In this document: positions 7,246 through 49,853 of the stretch, in pieces
How the letters are laid out: each line of letters starts with the position of its first letter
Numbering within the stretch: position 1 is the stretch's first letter
Source of the DNA: Brachynemurus nebulosus
Taxonomy: Eukaryota > Arthropoda > Insecta > Neuroptera > Myrmeleontidae
Length of the DNA: 64,000 nt
Assembly (NCBI GenBank): GCA_035578155.1
Contig: JAPWDM010000012.1
Span: forward strand, 15,287,619 to 15,351,618
Reading direction: 5' to 3'
Notes under the pieces: model-generated
Seen by the model: only the letters and a program-made list of their open reading frames with translations
Databases searched by the model: none
Told to the model about the DNA's origin: nothing
Position numbers and translations under genes: made by a program

Positions 7246-7683
7246 GGCCTGATTTACATTAACGCTCCGCTCTCGGTTCGATATAATATTCTTACACAGT
7301 AAACAATGAGTGTATTCACATCATCGCTCTGATATCAGTCCGATATCAGTCACGGTTGGCTCTCACTCCAATGCCACTCCAATATCAATACCACTCAGGT
7401 AATATTTTATTGGACTGATATCAGACTTGTTATGGCTTGTACCTATAGTGTAAACACTTTTTTGATTCCACTCCGCTCCGCTTGCATTCAGTTGTTATGA
7501 AAAGATATTAGTATCGAACTGAGACCGAACTGGGAGCGTACCCAGAGTGGCATTATAATGTGAATAGAGAACGAATAGGTACCAACATGTTATCAGCATT
7601 GTAATGTGAATACAACAAGATTATATCGAATCGGGAGCGTAGTGATATCGTACCGAGAGCGGAGCGTTAATGTAAATCGGGCC
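7246..7683. mobile_element. 438-bp TA-flanked MITE with about 40-bp inverted termini
   Basis: The left end GGCCTGATTTACATTAACG and the complement of the right end GGCCCGATTTACATTAACG continue to match through CTCCGCTCTCGGT and a GATAT step. TA lies on both sides (7244-7245 and 7684-7685). No coding capacity. The inner region repeats GATATCAGTC-like palindromic words several times. Confidence 0.82.
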
Positions 7684-41100: not shown

Positions 41101-41344
41101 TTAAATCTCGTTGCAAAAACTTTTTGATTCACATCAAAAACGTATTTCTAATTTCTTTCATTCATCTGCGCAACTTTGAAATAAAGTTATTCGTATCAAA
41201 GCACGTTGTAACATGATACTCTCTCTACTTAATAAATTAAGGGATGTAGTAATTTTACAGATATAATATCCATGTTTATCCATACTTCAAGCTTCCATGC
41301 AAAATATCTGTAGGTACATCACATTATACCCATATTATTATATA

Positions 41345-41356
41345 CACGGAAAAAAA
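41345..41356 (+). repeat. Left terminal inverted repeat of the two-gene transposon
   Basis: CACGGAAAAAAA, directly preceded by TATA. This is the end distal to the transposase stop codon. Confidence 0.88.
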
Positions 41357-42003
41357 GAATTATTCCCATCAAATAAATTTTATTCCAGTCAAATAAAATT
41401 TTTGTTTGCATACCGTCAAATAAGCTTTTTATTTCAACCAATTAATTTTTTTGTTTGAAATTATTCTCAGTTTCAAACAGAAAATCAGTTCATTAGAATT
41501 AAGAAAAAATTTAATCAAATAAAAAGTATAATTCAGACAATTACTAACATATTTAAATGAAATAATTCTATAGTTTGCACAAAACAAAGATGTTGCTTAT
41601 ATGAATTTGAATAACGATCTGTTGAAATAATATTTTGTTTCAATGAAATAAGGATTTTATTTGAACTAAACATTTTATTATATAGGTGAATTCATTTTCT
41701 TATTTGAATGAAATAAATAATTTATTTCAATTAACAATTATTGTTAATCCACTGTATTTTATTTTTATTTAAGTGAATTCATTTTCTTATTTGACTGAAA
41801 TAAATAATTTATTTCAGTTAACAATTATTGTTAATCCACTGTATTTTATTTTTATTTGAATTAAGTAGTATTTCTTATTTATCTGAAACATAAATAAACA
41901 TGTATTGGATACAATAAATAAAACGCGTTTATTTGTTAATATTGTATTTTGTTTGTAAGATGTACTACATTATTATTAATAATATGACAATCAAATAATA
42001 TTA
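41357..42003. repeat. Left subterminal region with repeated AAATAAA words and an 87-bp duplication
   Basis: Many short copies of TCAAATAAAAT, TTATTTCAA and TGAAATAA occur in both orientations. Two tandem 87-bp copies (41686-41772 and 41773-41859) begin GTGAATTCATTTTCTTATTT and differ by only a few bases. In CACTA elements such subterminal motifs are the binding sites of the element's proteins; here that role is inferred. Confidence 0.8.
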
Positions 42004-42371
42004 GGGCGATTCTCGCGTGACATTTTTGCAACAAAAAAATTTTTTTTAATTAAATTAATAACAAACAAAACAAAAAGTTTATAACACGAGGCAACTGGAT
42101 GAAAATTTTTTGAACATATTTTAATTTATATCTGAAATGCAGTACTCCAAATATAAGACATAAACTTCGTTTCGTACGATGTCCCGTGCGTCACGTGAGT
42201 TTATGCCTTATATCTTGAGTACTGAATTTCAGATAAAAATTAGAATATGCTCAAAAAAATTTACTTCATTTTCTGCGTATTATAAACATTTTGTTTTGTT
42301 TATTATTAATAGCATTTTTTTTTAAATGTTTTTGTTGTAAAAATGTCCTGTGCGTCACGCGAGAATCGCCC
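42004..42371. mobile_element. 368-bp fold-back MITE nested in the transposon, ATTA target
   Basis: GGGCGATTCTCGCGTGAC and its inverted form GTCACGCGAGAATCGCCC form the ends, with ATTA on both sides (42000-42003 and 42372-42375). The two halves continue to pair through most of their length (TTTTTGCAACAAAAA, TATCTGAAATTCAGTACT types). Near the centre GTCCCGTGCGTCACGTGAG resembles the end again. It lies between the transposase stop codon and the left end, so it does not interrupt a gene. Confidence 0.85.
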
Positions 42372-42414
42372 ATTACATAATAACAAAATTACACAAAAGT
42401 ACCAATTAATAAAA

Positions 42415-44847
42415 TCAAATGCGTAAAGAAATCAAATTCTTGCCATTACCAATGGTATGATAATTATGTGGAAATAAAGAGTACAGTTCTTTTACACATC
42501 TAATATCCCATTCTACATTTTCATGATTTATGACTACCTCATATGCTTGTCTGTGTAAATCATAACCAATAGTTTTTAGTATTTTTAAAACAAAATATAT
42601 TTCTTTATTTTTACTACTTAATATATATTTTATTAAACCAAATAAAGGATAATCTTCATCTATAAAACTAATTAATAAAATGTAACCAGGTTTGTATAAC
42701 ATACCATTCAATTTATATCGATTATAACTTAGACAATTTTCCTGGAAATTTAAAGGTAATTTTTTATAAAAGAAAATATAATCCTCTAAAGATTTTATAA
42801 ACGTCACATCTGTACTGTAATCTATTTTATCTGAAAATCCCAAATTACTAGAGAGACGATAACAAAATTTTAGTTGATGTTTGAGAGCTAAGGTGTATGG
42901 TATATTTTTTCGACATGCTATTACATTAGCATTAGTTTTGAATTCCTTATGTTTTGCTTCGTACCGCATACATGAAAAATTTACTAAAGGTCCAAAACGA
43001 TATAAAATTTCAGGATAATGAATTATTATGTGATGTTTTGGTTTGAGTTTTTCGTTAAATAATTTTAAATACAGTACATGATGTTCTTGTATTAAAGTTG
43101 CCAATAATTTAATGGCACCTTTATGTAATGTATTACTAAATGAAATAGCAACAATTTCTTTTAATATCAAGTAAAGTTCCCACACATTATCGTCAATAGG
43201 TACAAAATCTCCAGCAATAATACCAAAATAAGTAACAAATGCAAGCATTTCTGATGCTGACATAATGACATACTCATTATTTATATGTTCTTTAGACAAC
43301 AATGGAATTTTATTTCCAACATTACAATTCTCAGAATGATTAAAAAATTTGAGTTTATTATTTAAATGTTTTAATGTAACAAATTTTTTATCTTTTATTA
43401 TATATTTTAAAATCTTTGCCATATCATATCTACAAACTCCTTCCAATAAATCATGCATTACATCACATGATATATTTTTAGTTACATGAAAATGAGACAA
43501 TTGATTCCAAACTGATTCTTCTTTAATTCCGTTTGTTTTACAATTAACGTCTGTATTGTAAGTTATATTATTTCTTAATAGTGACTTATCTTCTGTCACT
43601 TGACTCTGTGTAAGAGATTTATCAGCTTTACATGTACGACAAAAATAAGAACCCGAAAAATTTTCACTGTAACCTAATATTGAATTTAATCCTAAATTAT
43701 CTCCTAATATAAGTATTACATTGAAAAATATTTGATATTTTTTATTATTAACAATAATTTCAATTCCCTTTTCATATAGTTCTACACATTCGTTAATTAA
43801 TTTAGAAAATGTTGCTCTATTGCCGAAATTTACTCGATCTTGTGAAAAAAACAACTGTGCCAGAAATATATTTTCTAAACGTGAAGCATACTTTGGTGGA
43901 ATACAAGCTAATGAAAAATATATTGCACCTAACTTGTATATAGATGCGTGGCTACCCAATACATTTCCAATTTGAAAATCATCAAAGAAAATATATAACG
44001 GCAAAACAGTTTTATCATAAAAATTACATTTTAATTCATTCCATACTATTCCATTAAAAACACTTTGTACGTTTTCACTATCGTAACAATCTTCCATATA
44101 ACTAATTATTGACTGAAATACAAACGGTAACTCTAAAAAACACTTAAGCACTTCTTTCATAGAAACAAATTGTCCTAAATTATCCTTTATTTGCATAGAT
44201 GAAACCTCTTGATTACTTTTTTGAAATTCAGACGTTCCAATAACAAACGGAACTGGTTTAATTAAAAAATTTGAACGTTCAAAATATTGAAGTCTTAAAT
44301 ATTCTGATTCAAAACCACTAAAAGGAGATTGTAGTTCAGAAATAATATTTTTAATATCAGCCAATATGGATTCAAAAGAATCAGTCTGTCCTCTAACAGA
44401 ATTTAATAAGTTAATTTTAGTATTCAGCTGTGTCACAACATTACAGTTAAATATTTCACTTACGAATTCAATTATATCTTGTATCACTGATCGTGTAACA
44501 GTATTATTGTTATATAGTTTTGAAATAAATTTCTGTATTGATTGTTTGAATGTTATATCCGGATTCAATGGAAAACTTTCAAAAGTTTCAGATAATTTAT
44601 TTTTATTAAATTTTTCAGTTTTATTGCTTAAATCTACATATTTTTTAGTAACTAAAGAACAATCTTCTATATTTGTTGTTTCATTTGAATGCTTAGAAAT
44701 TAAATGTTTTTTGAAATTCCATATATCTTTATACAAACGTAAACATATGCTGCATTGAAAATTTGAAGAATATTGATGTGAAAACTTCAAATGAGAAAAA
44801 AATATTTGCATATCATTAAAAGAAATATTACATTCTAAACATTCCAT
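42415..44847 (-). CDS. CACTA/EnSpm tnp2-like transposase with two N-terminal C2H2 fingers (810 aa)
   Basis: One uninterrupted frame runs from ATG (44847) to stop. Residues 3-24 (C3, C6, H19, H24) and 32-53 (C32, C35, H48, H53) are C2H2 fingers. The core has LPLYIFFDDFQIGNVLGSH (D289/D290), then VILILGDNLGLNSILGYSEN (D383) and the CRTC pair (C403, C406). Then come CDVMHDLLEGV (D462, H465), HHIIIHYPEILYRFGPLV, and MRYEAKHKEFK (E630, H633). This order matches the transposase-21 (tnp2) group common in animal EnSpm elements; D290, D383 and E630 are my candidates for the acidic catalytic residues. It would cut and join the transposon ends in the nucleus. It lies downstream of the SAM gene on the same strand, with 785 bases between the two coding ends. 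The start was chosen because it includes the complete first finger. No inactivating change is seen. Confidence 0.87.
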   Translation of the reverse strand: MECLECNISFNDMQIFFSHLKFSHQYSSNFQCSICLRLYKDIWNFKKHLISKHSNETTNIEDCSLVTKKYVDLSNKTEKFNKNKLSETFESFPLNPDITFKQSIQKFISKLYNNNTVTRSVIQDIIEFVSEIFNCNVVTQLNTKINLLNSVRGQTDSFESILADIKNIISELQSPFSGFESEYLRLQYFERSNFLIKPVPFVIGTSEFQKSNQEVSSMQIKDNLGQFVSMKEVLKCFLELPFVFQSIISYMEDCYDSENVQSVFNGIVWNELKCNFYDKTVLPLYIFFDDFQIGNVLGSHASIYKLGAIYFSLACIPPKYASRLENIFLAQLFFSQDRVNFGNRATFSKLINECVELYEKGIEIIVNNKKYQIFFNVILILGDNLGLNSILGYSENFSGSYFCRTCKADKSLTQSQVTEDKSLLRNNITYNTDVNCKTNGIKEESVWNQLSHFHVTKNISCDVMHDLLEGVCRYDMAKILKYIIKDKKFVTLKHLNNKLKFFNHSENCNVGNKIPLLSKEHINNEYVIMSASEMLAFVTYFGIIAGDFVPIDDNVWELYLILKEIVAISFSNTLHKGAIKLLATLIQEHHVLYLKLFNEKLKPKHHIIIHYPEILYRFGPLVNFSCMRYEAKHKEFKTNANVIACRKNIPYTLALKHQLKFCYRLSSNLGFSDKIDYSTDVTFIKSLEDYIFFYKKLPLNFQENCLSYNRYKLNGMLYKPGYILLISFIDEDYPLFGLIKYILSSKNKEIYFVLKILKTIGYDLHRQAYEVVINHENVEWDIRCVKELYSLFPHNYHTIGNGKNLISLRI

Positions 44848-45460
44848 TCTGAATAATAGTATTTGATATTTAATTCAATAAGTAAAAACAAATATATAAA
44901 ATTTGAAGAATATTGATGTGAAAACTTCAAATGAGAAAAAAATATTTGCGTATCATTAAAAGAAATATTACATTCTAAACATTCTATTCTGAATAATAGT
45001 ATTTGATATTTAATTCAATAAGTGTAAAAACAAATATATAAAATTTGAAGAATATTGATGTGAAAACTTCAAATGAGAAAAATATTTGCATATCATTAAA
45101 ATAAATATTACATTCTAAACATTCCATTCTGAGTAATAGTATTTGATATTTAATTCAATAAGTAAAAACAGATATATAAAATTTGAAGAATATTGATGTG
45201 AAAACTTCAAATGAGAAAAAAATATTTGCGTATCATTAAAAGAAATATTACATTCTAAACATTCTATTCTGAATTATAGTATTTGATATTTAATTCAATA
45301 AGTGTAAAAACAAATATATAAAATTTGAAGAATATTGATGTGAAAACTTCAAATGAGAAAAAAATATTTGCATATCATTAAAAGAAATATTACATTCTAA
45401 ACATTCCATTCTGAATAATAGTATTTCATATTTAATTCAATAAGTGTAAAAACAAATATA
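44761..45460. repeat. Five-copy, about 140-bp tandem array of the transposase start region
   Basis: Copies begin at about 44761, 44901, 45043, 45181 and 45323 (offsets 140, 142, 138, 142). Each carries the start codon and first-finger segment of the transposase gene; the first copy is the actual start of the open frame. On the minus strand, copies 1, 3 and 5 keep ATG while copies 2 and 4 read ATA. Copy 3 also has a 2-base deletion. The alternating pattern implies that a two-unit block was duplicated. The copies lie where the transposase promoter and 5' UTR should be. Confidence 0.92.
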
Positions 45461-45632
45461 AAAATATTTCGGAAATGAATTTTCAATTTTGGATATATAA
45501 ATAATTCTTCAAATTGACAGTAAACAAATGTATTTACATTACAAAAATAATCATAAATGTATTTCAAAAGTAACTTTGAAATTTTAAATATCAAAATTTT
45601 AAATATTGTAATAAACAAATGCAAATGGACTT

Positions 45633-48599
45633 TCACTGTCTATTTTCGTTATTCTTTAAATCGGAAATAAGTTCAGAAATTGATGGAATTTCGGAATCCC
45701 ATTTTGTTTCAATGTTATATATATAACGTTGTATTAAAGTTAAAATGTGACTACATTCAGAACTATACCGTGCGTTTAAAACATGATAAGCTTTAAAACA
45801 AATGTCAAAAGCCTTTAAACATGAATTTATTTGATACTTAATATTGTCTATAATTACGTATGTTTCGGTAATATTTTTTAAATTTGGTCCTACCACTAGT
45901 ATAAATGGTTGTACTGTAAGTCCATGTTTTAACATACGGGTGCGACGATTTTCTATAGTGACGTCAATTTCAGATGGCGTTGTTGAATGTAACAGTAGTC
46001 CTTCTAAAATTTCGGGTATTGTTGGCTTCCACTGCTTTCTTTTGTTGAATATTCTTGCTCTGGATTGTATTAGATATGGTAATAATGATATTTTTAATGT
46101 TGTTTTGCTATCTGAAAAAGAAAATATACGTATTTAAAATAAGTTAAGTACGAGTCTGACTCACGCACGGAGGGTTTCGTATAATATCTTCCTTCCTAAA
46201 GGGTAACTTCCTAAACCAAAAAGGTTATGTAAATAAAATTTCAGCTCAATCGGAGATATTTATATGGTTTTTGGAACTCCAGCCAAAATTTTTCCATTTT
46301 ATCTAAAAAAAAAAACTATAGACATTTGGACGAAGTTCGTTTTACTTTTCCTGTAATATATATGGAATTTCCTATTTGTATGAATTTTTTCAAAGTTTTC
46401 GGTTCGAAAACTTCGAAGATAAGAAAGGGGGACGGTATTTTTTCGCACATTTTTGGCCATAACTTAAGAACCTACGTAATTTAAACTTTTAAAAAAAGTA
46501 GTTTTGAAATGTGTAAACAAAGCCCTTTCAAATGATATCCCACTTGACCTTGGTTTCGCACTTACAAATTTCAACCGTCCATTTCTAACCCCTTTTCAAA
46601 TAAAAATAAAAGGATTTCTGAAATTAATTTACCTGTAATAGATGTAGACAAACGATTTCTATACGGACGGACATTGAAGTCTCACTCTAAGGGTTCCGTT
46701 TTTTATTTTTTTACGGAACCCTAAAAACAACAGAAAAATAGTAAATAAAAAGAAATGTTTCTTACTTTCAGATAAGTTAATGTTGTCTAATTCCTTGAGT
46801 GTACACCGAGCCTCATCTGGTAAATACTTCCTTTTTAATTTTAACAAAGACTCAATAAAACTGGAAAAATTTGATAATAGGCATAACTCCTTTTCTGGGA
46901 AAAGTTCTGCAAAATCTTTTTCAATCTGTAAAATTTTAAGAAAAAAACAAAACTGAAACGTTTTTTACATTACAGTTTCCAAATATGAAATATATTTTTA
47001 ATTTTTTACCAAAGTAAATCCAAAAGAACATTTTAGAATAGGCCATTGTGAAATAAACTCATTTACGGTTAATAATTGATTACTTTCATGTTTCCTCAAC
47101 GGAAAAGTTTTTTTCCAAAAATCAATAACTTGATCAAATGGTTCAGTATTATATTCCAACCATGTTTTAAAATTTACAAGATTTTTTGATTCACCTAAAA
47201 TTAAGTGAAAAATAAACAAAAAATATTTGTTAGATTGTAAAAACGAAAAAAGTATGATTTTACCTTCATCAGACTCCACACTTAAGGATTCACTAGGCGG
47301 TGTAGGACTCCAAAGACCTGAAGTTCTGAAATAACGTAATTTGTTTCTATATTTATCTATTAAACGGCCTTTCGCTGGCGTACATTTTCCAGTAGAAGAT
47401 TTTTTTAGTGATGGTACATAGTAAGTTTCTTTAACTTCATTTGGGAAAATATCAATAATATCTTGAGCCAATTTTTCAAAATGGCTTGCATCCAATTTTC
47501 TAAAAATTAATAACGAAATTTTTTTTTAATTCTATATAATTAATATTCAACTTTAATTTGAAAAATACCGTGTAGTCGATTTAAATATTTCTGATATGAT
47601 TAAATCACAAAGAATATTTCGTGATTTTCGATCTAAGATTCGGTTTCCCGCATAAGTTGCTAGAATAATTTTTCCGTTACAAGTATTATTTAAAATATCA
47701 TTTAAATTAAAATCTAACTGTTGACAATTATTTAGTTTTTGTATTAATTCGTCTCCGTAACATGCGTTATATCTTTTTATTTTTGCTGGTGATACTTCTA
47801 CTGGATCAAAATTTTCTAAATCCGAAAAATTAGTAGATACAGTCGAGCAACTGGAACTGGTTTCATATTTATTTGGCTAAAATAAAATATTATATATTAT
47901 ATTACAAAAAAAAACCGTCTATTTTTTTTCTTTCAATTATTTAAAATTAATTGAATTTACCAGAACAGTTACAGGTAATTTTTCCCGTTTAAAGGCATTT
48001 AATTTGGAAATAAACTTGCTACGTGGTCCTATTTTTTTAAATATTTCAGCTATCATGTCTTCAGTTAAATGTAATAATGACGTAATATCTATCTCGTTAT
48101 CTAACAAAAAACAATTTAGTATTATACTACTGAATAAACTAATTTCATAAAATTAAATTCATATTATGAATGCATAAAGATTGGGCACATATTAATTATT
48201 TATTGCTTTGAAAAAAATATGAACCAAAAGCAATACATTTTAATTTACAACAACACGGCTGATAACTTAGGTATTGTTTGTTAAAATAATAATGACGTAA
48301 TATCTATTTCGTTACCTAAAAATGATTTAGTATTATAATAAACTAATTTAATCAAATTAAATTCATAATTAGTATAAATGTAAAAAAGTTTGGGCAGGTG
48401 CTAATTACTAATATCTTTGAAATAAATGAAAAACCCAAAACAACAGATTTTATTTAGAACAATATGGCTGATAAAGATATGTATATGTACTATGTACCTA
48501 CTATTTGTTAAAAAAATTATTTTTTTACTTACCGATAAAAACAGATATATACTCTTCGAAACCCCAATTTTTCAAAATGGTCTTTGTTTCCTCATCCAT
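45633..48599 (-). CDS. SAM-domain accessory protein of the transposon, seven exons, 524 aa
   Basis: The exons are 48599-48533, 48100-47961, 47876-47569, 47499-47264, 47194-47010, 46925-46766 and 46111-45633. Their lengths (67, 140, 308, 236, 185, 160, 479) sum to 1575, that is 524 codons plus stop, with GT-AG at every junction and agreeing phases. Residues 5-60 form a sterile alpha motif: TILKNWGFEEYISVF, a junction Asp, NEIDITSLLHLTEDMIAEIF and KKIGPRSKFISKLNAFKRE. Residues 172-250 have LAQDIIDIFPNEVKETYYVP and the basic GRLIDKYRNKLRYFR. Exon 6 has DFAELFPEK. The pattern recalls animal proteins annotated as SAMD3-like, whose role is unclear. SAM domains mediate protein-protein association. 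A structural or DNA-end-binding partner of the transposase, as TNPA is in En/Spm, is my inference. It lies immediately upstream of the transposase gene. Confidence 0.85.
46146..46722. repeat. Interspersed repeat inside the last intron of the SAM gene
   Basis: It begins near ACGAGTCTGACTCACGCACG with GAGGGTTTCGTA and ends in the hairpin AGGGTTCCGT...ACGGAACCCT followed by A-rich sequence. Words of this kind (GACTCGCGCAC, AGGGTTCCGT) belong to a repeat common in several insect orders. It makes the intron 654 bases long, whereas introns 2-5 are only 69-84 bases. Confidence 0.6.
48076..48485. repeat. Tandem duplication of SAM exon 2 start and part of intron 1
   Basis: AATGACGTAATATCTAT at 48076 recurs at 48291 and the similarity continues for about 200 bases (AAACTAATTT, AATTAAATTCATA, TGGCTGATAA types). 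The right copy retains an AG acceptor (48317-48316) in front of a degenerate exon 2 start. Using it would hit a stop after about 11 codons, inside the SAM domain. Confidence 0.75.
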
Positions 48600-49119
48600 T
48601 TTAATAACTAATGTTAAACATATATATTACATATATAGAAAAAAATACAAAAACACACAATGGCGTCACTTGGATGTTTAGAACGGAACGTTTAAATATT
48701 TCTTTTAATGTTAAATCACTTTAAACTACTCAATACAACCGACGCGAATGCCGAAACAGTACATAATGATGTATATGTATATCGTATATCACATGACCAT
48801 ATTCTACATGCGCAGTTTCAAATGTGTTGAACATATTTAAGTTGTGTTCAACTGGAATAAAATATACTGGACTGAAACTAAATGTCGTTTGCATAACTTT
48901 TAAAATAAATTCATTCAAATAAAATTAAATAAACAAATGGTTTTTAAAACTGAAATAATGTGTTTGTTTGGAACTTATTAAAAAATGCAAACAAAAAAAT
49001 TAATTTTTGGAAATAACAGAAATGATTAGGTAAACTGTATGATAATTCATTGGACAAAATTTTATTTGGGCAAAATAATACTTTTCAAACATTCAGTTTT
49101 ATTTCATTGAACTGAATCG
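48600..49119. promoter_or_regulatory. 5' region and right subterminal repeats of the transposon
   Basis: This holds the presumed promoter of the SAM gene and the right subterminal segment. AAATAAA, GAAATAA and TTTATTTG words recur towards 49119, as on the left. I cannot point to a specific TATA box or start site. Confidence 0.5.
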
Positions 49120-49131
49120 TTTTTTTCCGTG
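49120..49131 (-). repeat. Right terminal inverted repeat of the two-gene transposon
   Basis: Complement of CACGGAAAAAAA, directly followed by TATA. This is the promoter-proximal end. Confidence 0.88.
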
Positions 49132-49135
49132 TATA

Positions 49136-49853
49136 CCAACGCAAATTGCAAAATACTAAATTAGATATAAAGCTAACGTTAAAAAGAAGAAAAAACATGG
49201 GGACAAAATACACTGTATATTTTGACAAGCACGAGTTGGCAATAAGCGTAATAAAATTTTACAAATCGGTTTTACACTGAAAAAAAATTAAATGATTAGT
49301 CAGACATTGTTCTTAAAGTTCTTATAACAGTATATGAATATAAAATTCAAAAAAAAAAACAAAAATAATCATCATTAGTTTTATTAGTTACTAGCCCGAG
49401 TTACACTTACTTTGCTTGGACAAAGCCAGTCAGCTCCCATAAAATGTAGATTAAAAGATCCCTGTCGCAGTATCCTGCATAATATGACGAATTTCCAAGG
49501 ACTGGGGACTGGCGGATCTCATATAACAACCTGTATAGTTGTTACCTAAAACAGTTTAGCTCTTTAACAGTGAAAAAATTTTGAAAATCGGTTGAGTATA
49601 ATTGATTTTTGGCGCTTTTAGGTCGCTAACATCATGACTAATCTCACGTTCATTTATATTAATTTAAATTTTTAACGGTGAAAGAATTTTCAAAATTAAT
49701 TGGATAGTTTCTTTTTGGTGTTTTTGGAACCCCAGAACCATGACAGATCTCATATAATATAACCTATATCCTTCTAAAATAGTTAAGCTAACAGTGAGAA
49801 AATTTTCAAAATTGGTGATGACGCGTTTTTGGAAAGTTAGTTTATTTTTATTT
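49136..49853. repeat. Non-coding region with a diverged tandem repeat
   Basis: From about 49500 to 49830, a unit of ATCTCATATAA, then AAAACAGTTTAGCT, then AACAGTGAAAAAATTTT and AAAATTGG(T/A) occurs about three times with divergence. The block GTCGCAGTATCCTGCATAAT at 49464 is shared with 32307-32340. No gene. Confidence 0.5.

Follow-up and report, generated by a model that had tools for sequence, protein, structure and literature searches.

Structure of the element

The window analysed here, a stretch of 64,000 nucleotides from the Brachynemurus nebulosus assembly, contains a complete transposon of 7,787 bp (41345 to 49131) with two genes, one for a transposase and one for a protein with a SAM domain, both encoded on the minus strand. 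We hold with high confidence that the two genes form one mobile unit, as a reading made from the letters of the window alone (the sequence-only reading) had proposed. The element is bounded by terminal repeats of 12 bp, CACGGAAAAAAA, which are inverted and identical at the left (41345 to 41356, plus strand) and right (49120 to 49131, minus strand) ends, just as that reading had described. Outside the repeats lie the target-site duplications TA (41343 to 41344 and 49132 to 49133), and TATA can be read next to both ends.

The transposase gene (42415 to 44847, minus strand) is a single open frame of 810 amino acids plus stop, of which 50 full-length copies exist in the genome. The protein starts with two C2H2 zinc fingers (residues 3-24 and 32-53; 44689 to 44841, minus strand), recognised by conserved cysteine and histidine columns and a sub-threshold match to zf-C2H2_4. 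This is followed by a RAG1/Transib-like region (residues 96-669; 42841 to 44562, minus strand) with D289, D383, C403, C406, H465, H606, H610 and E630, and by a C-terminal BAH-like domain (residues 673-806; 42430 to 42831, minus strand). D289, D383, C403, C406, H606, H610 and E630 were present in all 70 proteins of an alignment which included the window protein and was a selection from 120 listed transposase relatives, while in a second alignment of 46 members, partial sequences included, H606 and H610 were found at 90% or more and were not invariant. The transposase has the conserved DDE, C(2)C and H(3)H residues together with a RAG1 fold; which of the acidic residues are catalytic is a putative assignment taken from the published motif order.

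The window transposase matched no Pfam family at the cut-off, its catalytic part was without a match, and no match to Transposase_21 (PF02992, tnp2) was found. Among the 46 aligned members, matches at E ≤ 0.1 were obtained to Transposase_21 in nine (best 0.0014), to Plavaka in three (best 0.0015) and to DUF4218 in two; two beetle proteins, P0081 and P0101, scored 12.9 and 12.6 for Transposase_21, whose cut-off is 28.6. The label "tnp2-like" given by the sequence-only reading therefore stands only as a distant kinship; in its fold and catalytic signature the window protein belongs with the CACTA/Chapaev/Transib/RAG1 clade at large. Viral contigs scanned with the transposase alignment yielded 53 stretches fitting the pattern and no relative. 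The BAH-like domain may allow this RAG1-fold transposase to read histones, and the DUF4216 domain of plant CACTA elements may be the same domain.

The SAM gene model, assembled by hand, runs from 48599 to 45633 on the minus strand in seven exons: 48533 to 48599 (start codon and beginning of the SAM domain), 47961 to 48100 (rest of the SAM domain, residues 9-59), 47569 to 47876, 47264 to 47499, 47010 to 47194, 46766 to 46925, and 45633 to 46111 (stop codon). All six introns are GT-AG and the product of 524 amino acids is stop-free; with the 810-codon open transposase, this bears out the claim of two same-strand genes without inactivating changes. In four of four further copies every splice site and the frame were kept. 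Residues 9-59 matched Pfam SAM_2 (PF07647) at 23.0 bits, above its cut-off of 20.5, while PF00536 scored 22.9 bits, just below its cut-off of 23.

Copies, target sites and recent mobility

The genome searched was the window's own assembly (960 Mb, 138 contigs). Within the window alone the short end motif is weak evidence, CACGGAAAAAA having eight matches with at most one mismatch (the two exact ones being the element ends) against 3.54 expected. Genome-wide, TATACACGGAAAAAAA was found 75 times as compared with twice for the reversed control, and the left 30-bp end with up to three mismatches 218 times against none for the control; this recurrence is not chance. The transposase had 56 matches, 50 of them full-length, with a rounded identity of 100% and no stop. 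All 50 copies were checked at both ends, and 48 carried both 30-bp ends without mismatch, so the ends are indeed shared among copies. A perfect 2-bp flanking repeat was present in 47 of these 48 (TA in 42, TG in three, AA in one and CA in one), and beyond the dinucleotide the insertion sites showed a weak preference (e.g., T at −3 in 3/48 and G at −4 in 3/48). Four identical flanking bases were confined to the window copy (1/48), hence the TATA that the sequence-only reading had pointed out on both sides is there, but as a TA with a chance neighbour; TATA as a 4-bp target duplication was ruled out.

Across the 30 best-scoring copies, a sample picked by score and so biased to near identity, the transposase gene (2,433 bp) varied at two positions and had no singletons, and within its first 1,070 bp the element differed from that of the window at 0-2 positions. 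The SAM genes of four copies, three of them outside this set, showed 0-8 mismatches in 3 kb, two also having small gaps. On any usual insect mutation rate such an amplification burst would be very recent.

For empty sites, the joined flanks of the 48 copies were compared with a subset of the genome sequence. Five insertions have a clear paralogous site with a single dinucleotide and a sixth has a fair one, and the simple empty sites anticipated for a mobile element are therefore present. The site of C74:57228802 was identical across the junction over 356/356 bp, and those of C95:35725405 and C95:39335545 showed 98.5% and 97.8% identity. Those of C17:16853823 (92%) and C74:50974102 (91%) lie in the window at 1957-2137 and 7265-7556, and that of C109:631411 was less clean (81-89%). 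The sites of C74:57228802 and C95:35725405 fall within copies of a related short element. Further junction-spanning matches were dropped as tandem or self repeats or as weak (C1:131186242, C84:47979497, C106:33500962, C2:16144762, C58:65544757 and C11:5166674), C84:47979497 giving nothing above the bar when rechecked in the same comparison. A repeat at 49454-49612 of the window matches, without the insert, the flanks of an element copy elsewhere and is only 78% alike. A fossil or an assembly artefact was ruled out by the exact ends with duplications, the empty sites and the near-identical copies.

Pairing of the two genes

Genome-wide, 317 matches to SAM exons were found, and the last-exon figures come from the listed matches. 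Of the 56 last-exon matches listed, 54 are followed on the same strand by a transposase at a distance of 509-830 bp, and the remaining two are relics on contig C116, where three SAM-gene relics (L114, L115 and L116) were seen with no transposase detectable in the stretches read. Likewise, 54 of the 56 transposase matches have a SAM exon upstream. One exception, C84:41468767, appears to be the latter half of a copy that was split. The other, C84:33835516, has a transposase that is 40% identical and contains one stop; a diverged SAM gene (35% over 155 amino acids and 26% over 180 amino acids against the window) lies upstream, i.e., the order of the two genes is the same in this lineage. Together with the many copies sharing both ends and the empty sites, this pairing carries the conclusion that the two genes travel as one defined unit.

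The same pairing was met in gene models of other insects. P0082 (Brenthis ino, a butterfly) and P0081 (Holotrichia oblita, a beetle) are single gene models in which a SAM-type N-terminus runs into this transposase, while in P0101 (Holotrichia) the transposase is preceded by a middle portion of the SAM protein that lacks the SAM domain. Compared with the window SAM protein, the SAM part of P0082 shows 26% identity and that of P0081 27%; Pfam SAM_1 scored 19.3 in P0082, below the cut-off of 23, and P0081 had no Pfam SAM match at E ≤ 0.1. The predicted structure of P0081 has a five-helix domain at the SAM position with a predicted local distance difference test score (pLDDT) of 80-92, the mean pLDDT of the model being 54. 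A Foldseek search with this model gave no match at E ≤ 0.001, and the SAM folds that were returned (BICC1, ANKS3/6, Shank, tankyrase, Eph) had a probability of 0.89-1.00 and an E of 0.78 or worse. The fused models P0081, P0082 and P0101 show gene adjacency; being predicted, they may be mis-joined.

Simple counts of synonymous (pS) and non-synonymous (pN) differences, uncorrected for multiple hits, were made between the relics and the window. In exon 7, relic L115 gave a pS of 0.425 and a pN of 0.107 over 150 codons, and the younger relic L114 a pS of 0.049 and a pN of 0.022; in exon 3, L114 gave a pS of 0.065 and a pN of 0.013, and the comparison with L115 (6 codons) was dropped. Both relics carry stops, as such, decay after inactivation should raise pN, yet the L115 ratio is still 0.25. 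The SAM gene has been under purifying selection between the two lineages.

Subterminal arrays and short relatives

The motif T[CG]AAA[TC]AA occurs 18 times in the left subterminal region (41345 to 41904; 560 bp, 0.83 expected), a number reached by none of 300 simulated sequences, and three times in the right one (48812 to 49131; 0.5 expected), which 7/300 simulated sequences matched. The 6,100 interior bp hold nine (44/300 simulated sequences had as many). In the short element, the two 330-bp ends carry five motifs each (0/300 each) and the interior none. Motif arrays were therefore found at three of the four tested ends, the fourth being weaker.

Among the left-end matches listed, at least 53 were exact and all the others shared the same two differences. 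One copy of the short element with this two-difference end measures 1,563 bp, its ends matching those of the window element at 86% (over 118 bp) and 73% (over 216 bp), and a second copy measures 1,540 bp. Non-autonomous relatives of about 1.5 kb with the same termini were seen at L004, L005, L006 and L007, and such short relatives are probably more numerous than the full element. Two full elements are inserted inside copies of these relatives.

Relationship to known transposons

Maize Spm/En also relies on two proteins and has CACTA ends, a 3-bp duplication and subterminal motif arrays where TNPA binds; we know of no SAM domain in Spm. The window element shares the two proteins, the CAC start of the ends and the subterminal arrays with Spm, and differs from it in its CACGG ends and 2-bp duplication. 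Transib, ProtoRAG and RAG1-RAG2 make a 5-bp duplication, unlike the 2 bp found here, and the second protein of that group is RAG2 where this element has a SAM protein.

The CACTA-Mirage-Chapaev-Transib (CMCT) clade comprises CACTA/EnSpm, Mirage, Chapaev and Transib, including RAG1, and mostly has 5'-CA..TG-3' termini and a duplication of 2 to 5 bp (PMC12730594). EnSpm is related to Chapaev, Transib and RAG1 (PMC12730594), and a relationship of Chapaev and Transib to RAG1 has been described (PMC4411706). The window element agrees with this clade in its CACGG...CCGTG termini, its 2-bp duplication (47/48) and its RAG1/Transib-like transposase fold. In Spm, TNPA and TNPD are both essential and derive from one alternatively spliced unit, in contrast to the two genes here, and the DNA binding of TNPA is stabilised by its interaction with TNPD (PMC1636069).

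Animal CACTA-type elements are known, namely TRC (PMC1636069) and Spongebob (PMC4298943). TRC, i.e., SmTRC1 and its animal relatives, is similar in its animal hosts, tnp2-related transposase, 2-bp duplication and spliced transcripts, but has a recognisable Transposase_21 and a CCC terminal core instead of CACGG, and no SAM-domain gene appears in the available part of its description (PMC1636069). ESTA belongs to the same clade and has TA duplications and a RAG1-like transposase; it is fungal and carries a TET/JBP gene, and the likeness is one of description only (PMC12730594). A partial search of the literature found no report of such an element carrying a SAM-domain gene, although a Repbase entry without a paper may exist.

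Proposed mechanism and alternative explanations

We consider it probable that the element is an autonomous transposon of the CMCT (RAG1) clade which has been recently amplified and in which the SAM protein is a predicted accessory subunit. Judging from fold and conserved residues, a transposase with zinc fingers at its N-terminus, a DDE core resembling that of RAG1 and a BAH-like domain at its C-terminus would move the element by cut-and-paste, the DDE residues presumably cleaving next to the CAC of the CACGG ends and joining these to TA sites with a 2-bp stagger. The SAM protein would have a dedicated accessory role in which it binds to the subterminal arrays, the transposase or both. Many SAM domains self-associate, and this protein may do so via its own, bringing the element ends together in a manner comparable to TNPA in maize Spm. 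The gene pairing, the selection and the subterminal arrays are consistent with such an end-joining role, which the sequence-only reading had also put forward and to which we give about even chances. More tentatively, the element could represent a distinct animal lineage of RAG1-fold transposons in which the SAM protein polymerises on the subterminal arrays and brings the ends to a transposase with a chromatin-reading BAH-like domain; partners of this kind could then be the ancestors of SAMD3-like genes in hosts.

That the copies are segmental or assembly duplicates and not products of transposition would suit their near identity, but is practically precluded by 48 copies that stop exactly at CACGG with differing flanks, 47 of them with a 2-bp duplication, and by the existence of empty sites. 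Plant CACTA elements commonly capture host sequence, and the SAM gene might accordingly have been captured from the host and do nothing for the element; a pN/pS close to 0.25 in 150 codons compared across two lineages, seven open exons in every copy read whole and the same pairing in other insects make this very improbable. It is less far-fetched, though still unlikely in our view, that the transposase alone mobilises the element and the SAM gene is kept for another reason, e.g., to counter silencing or to interact with the host. In sequence, the SAM domain weakly matches ANKS4B (E 0.0021) and Polyhomeotic (E 0.014), and several fungal CMCT transposons carry a TET/JBP gene thought to aid escape from silencing (PMC12730594). 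Those fungal cargo genes have, however, moved between superfamilies (PMC12730594), whereas the bond between SAM gene and transposase is tighter, its order being kept in the 40%-identical lineage and in the models from Brenthis ino and Holotrichia oblita, although for function this is a weak argument only.

Assignment to EnSpm/CACTA in the strict sense is a possibility that we do not favour. The CAC start, the subterminal repeats, the two genes and the Transposase_21 and DUF4218 matches of some aligned members would agree with it, but the window protein has no tnp2 match, at the curated cut-off or otherwise, the ends are CACGG and not CACTA, and the duplication is of 2 bp and not 3 bp.

Several observations weigh against an autonomous CMCT element with a SAM subunit. 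Copy C122:30216291 has no flanking duplication (1/48), and in two of the 50 copies the right end is not at the expected place: in C74:30521323 the element match begins inside the SAM gene, which is cut there, and in C1:47713342 the expected SAM-side stretch upstream of exon 3 has no match to the element. In the stretches read, the divergent relative at C84:33835516 has no convincing inverted ends. The SAM gene was read whole in five copies only, the window included, and its intactness (5/5) is that of a small sample; outside the SAM domain, the protein has no Pfam domain and no confident fold. Among public proteins, two SAM searches, which scored the 7,995 and 7,996 candidates with most words in common, gave two matches each and three relatives altogether, against 189 for the transposase, so that a SAM partner is shown for a minority of transposase relatives. 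Furthermore, the subterminal motif was picked on the window element itself, which leaves the ends of the short element as the only separate, though related, test.

The element appears to be a complete animal transposon of the CACTA clade that moved very recently, its transposase being open in 50 copies. It bears on the need for a second protein in animal elements, on the role of SAM domains in transposition, and on how RAG-like transposases work with partners besides RAG2. If a transpososome built with SAM were true, it would be a second-protein solution distinct from TNPA and RAG2. SAM-domain genes occur in many copies in animal genomes, and the element may bear on these multicopy genes as well.

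Nested and internal repeats

A foldback element (42004-42371) with arms of 113 nt that are 84% complementary, inverted GGGCGATTCTCGCG ends and ATTA on both sides is nested between the stop codon of the transposase gene and the left end of the transposon. The left regions of the 30 best-scoring copies are the same as in the window except at 0-2 positions, so the foldback is present there too. In intron 6 of the SAM gene, a stretch at 46145-46725 flanked by CGGAGGGTTTCGTA and CGGAACCCT looks like a nested short repeat. The spacing between exon 7 and the transposase takes four values among the copies. A 140-bp tandem repeat in five copies (44758 to 45465) overlaps the start of the transposase gene, its units duplicating the gene start and the sequence ahead of it.

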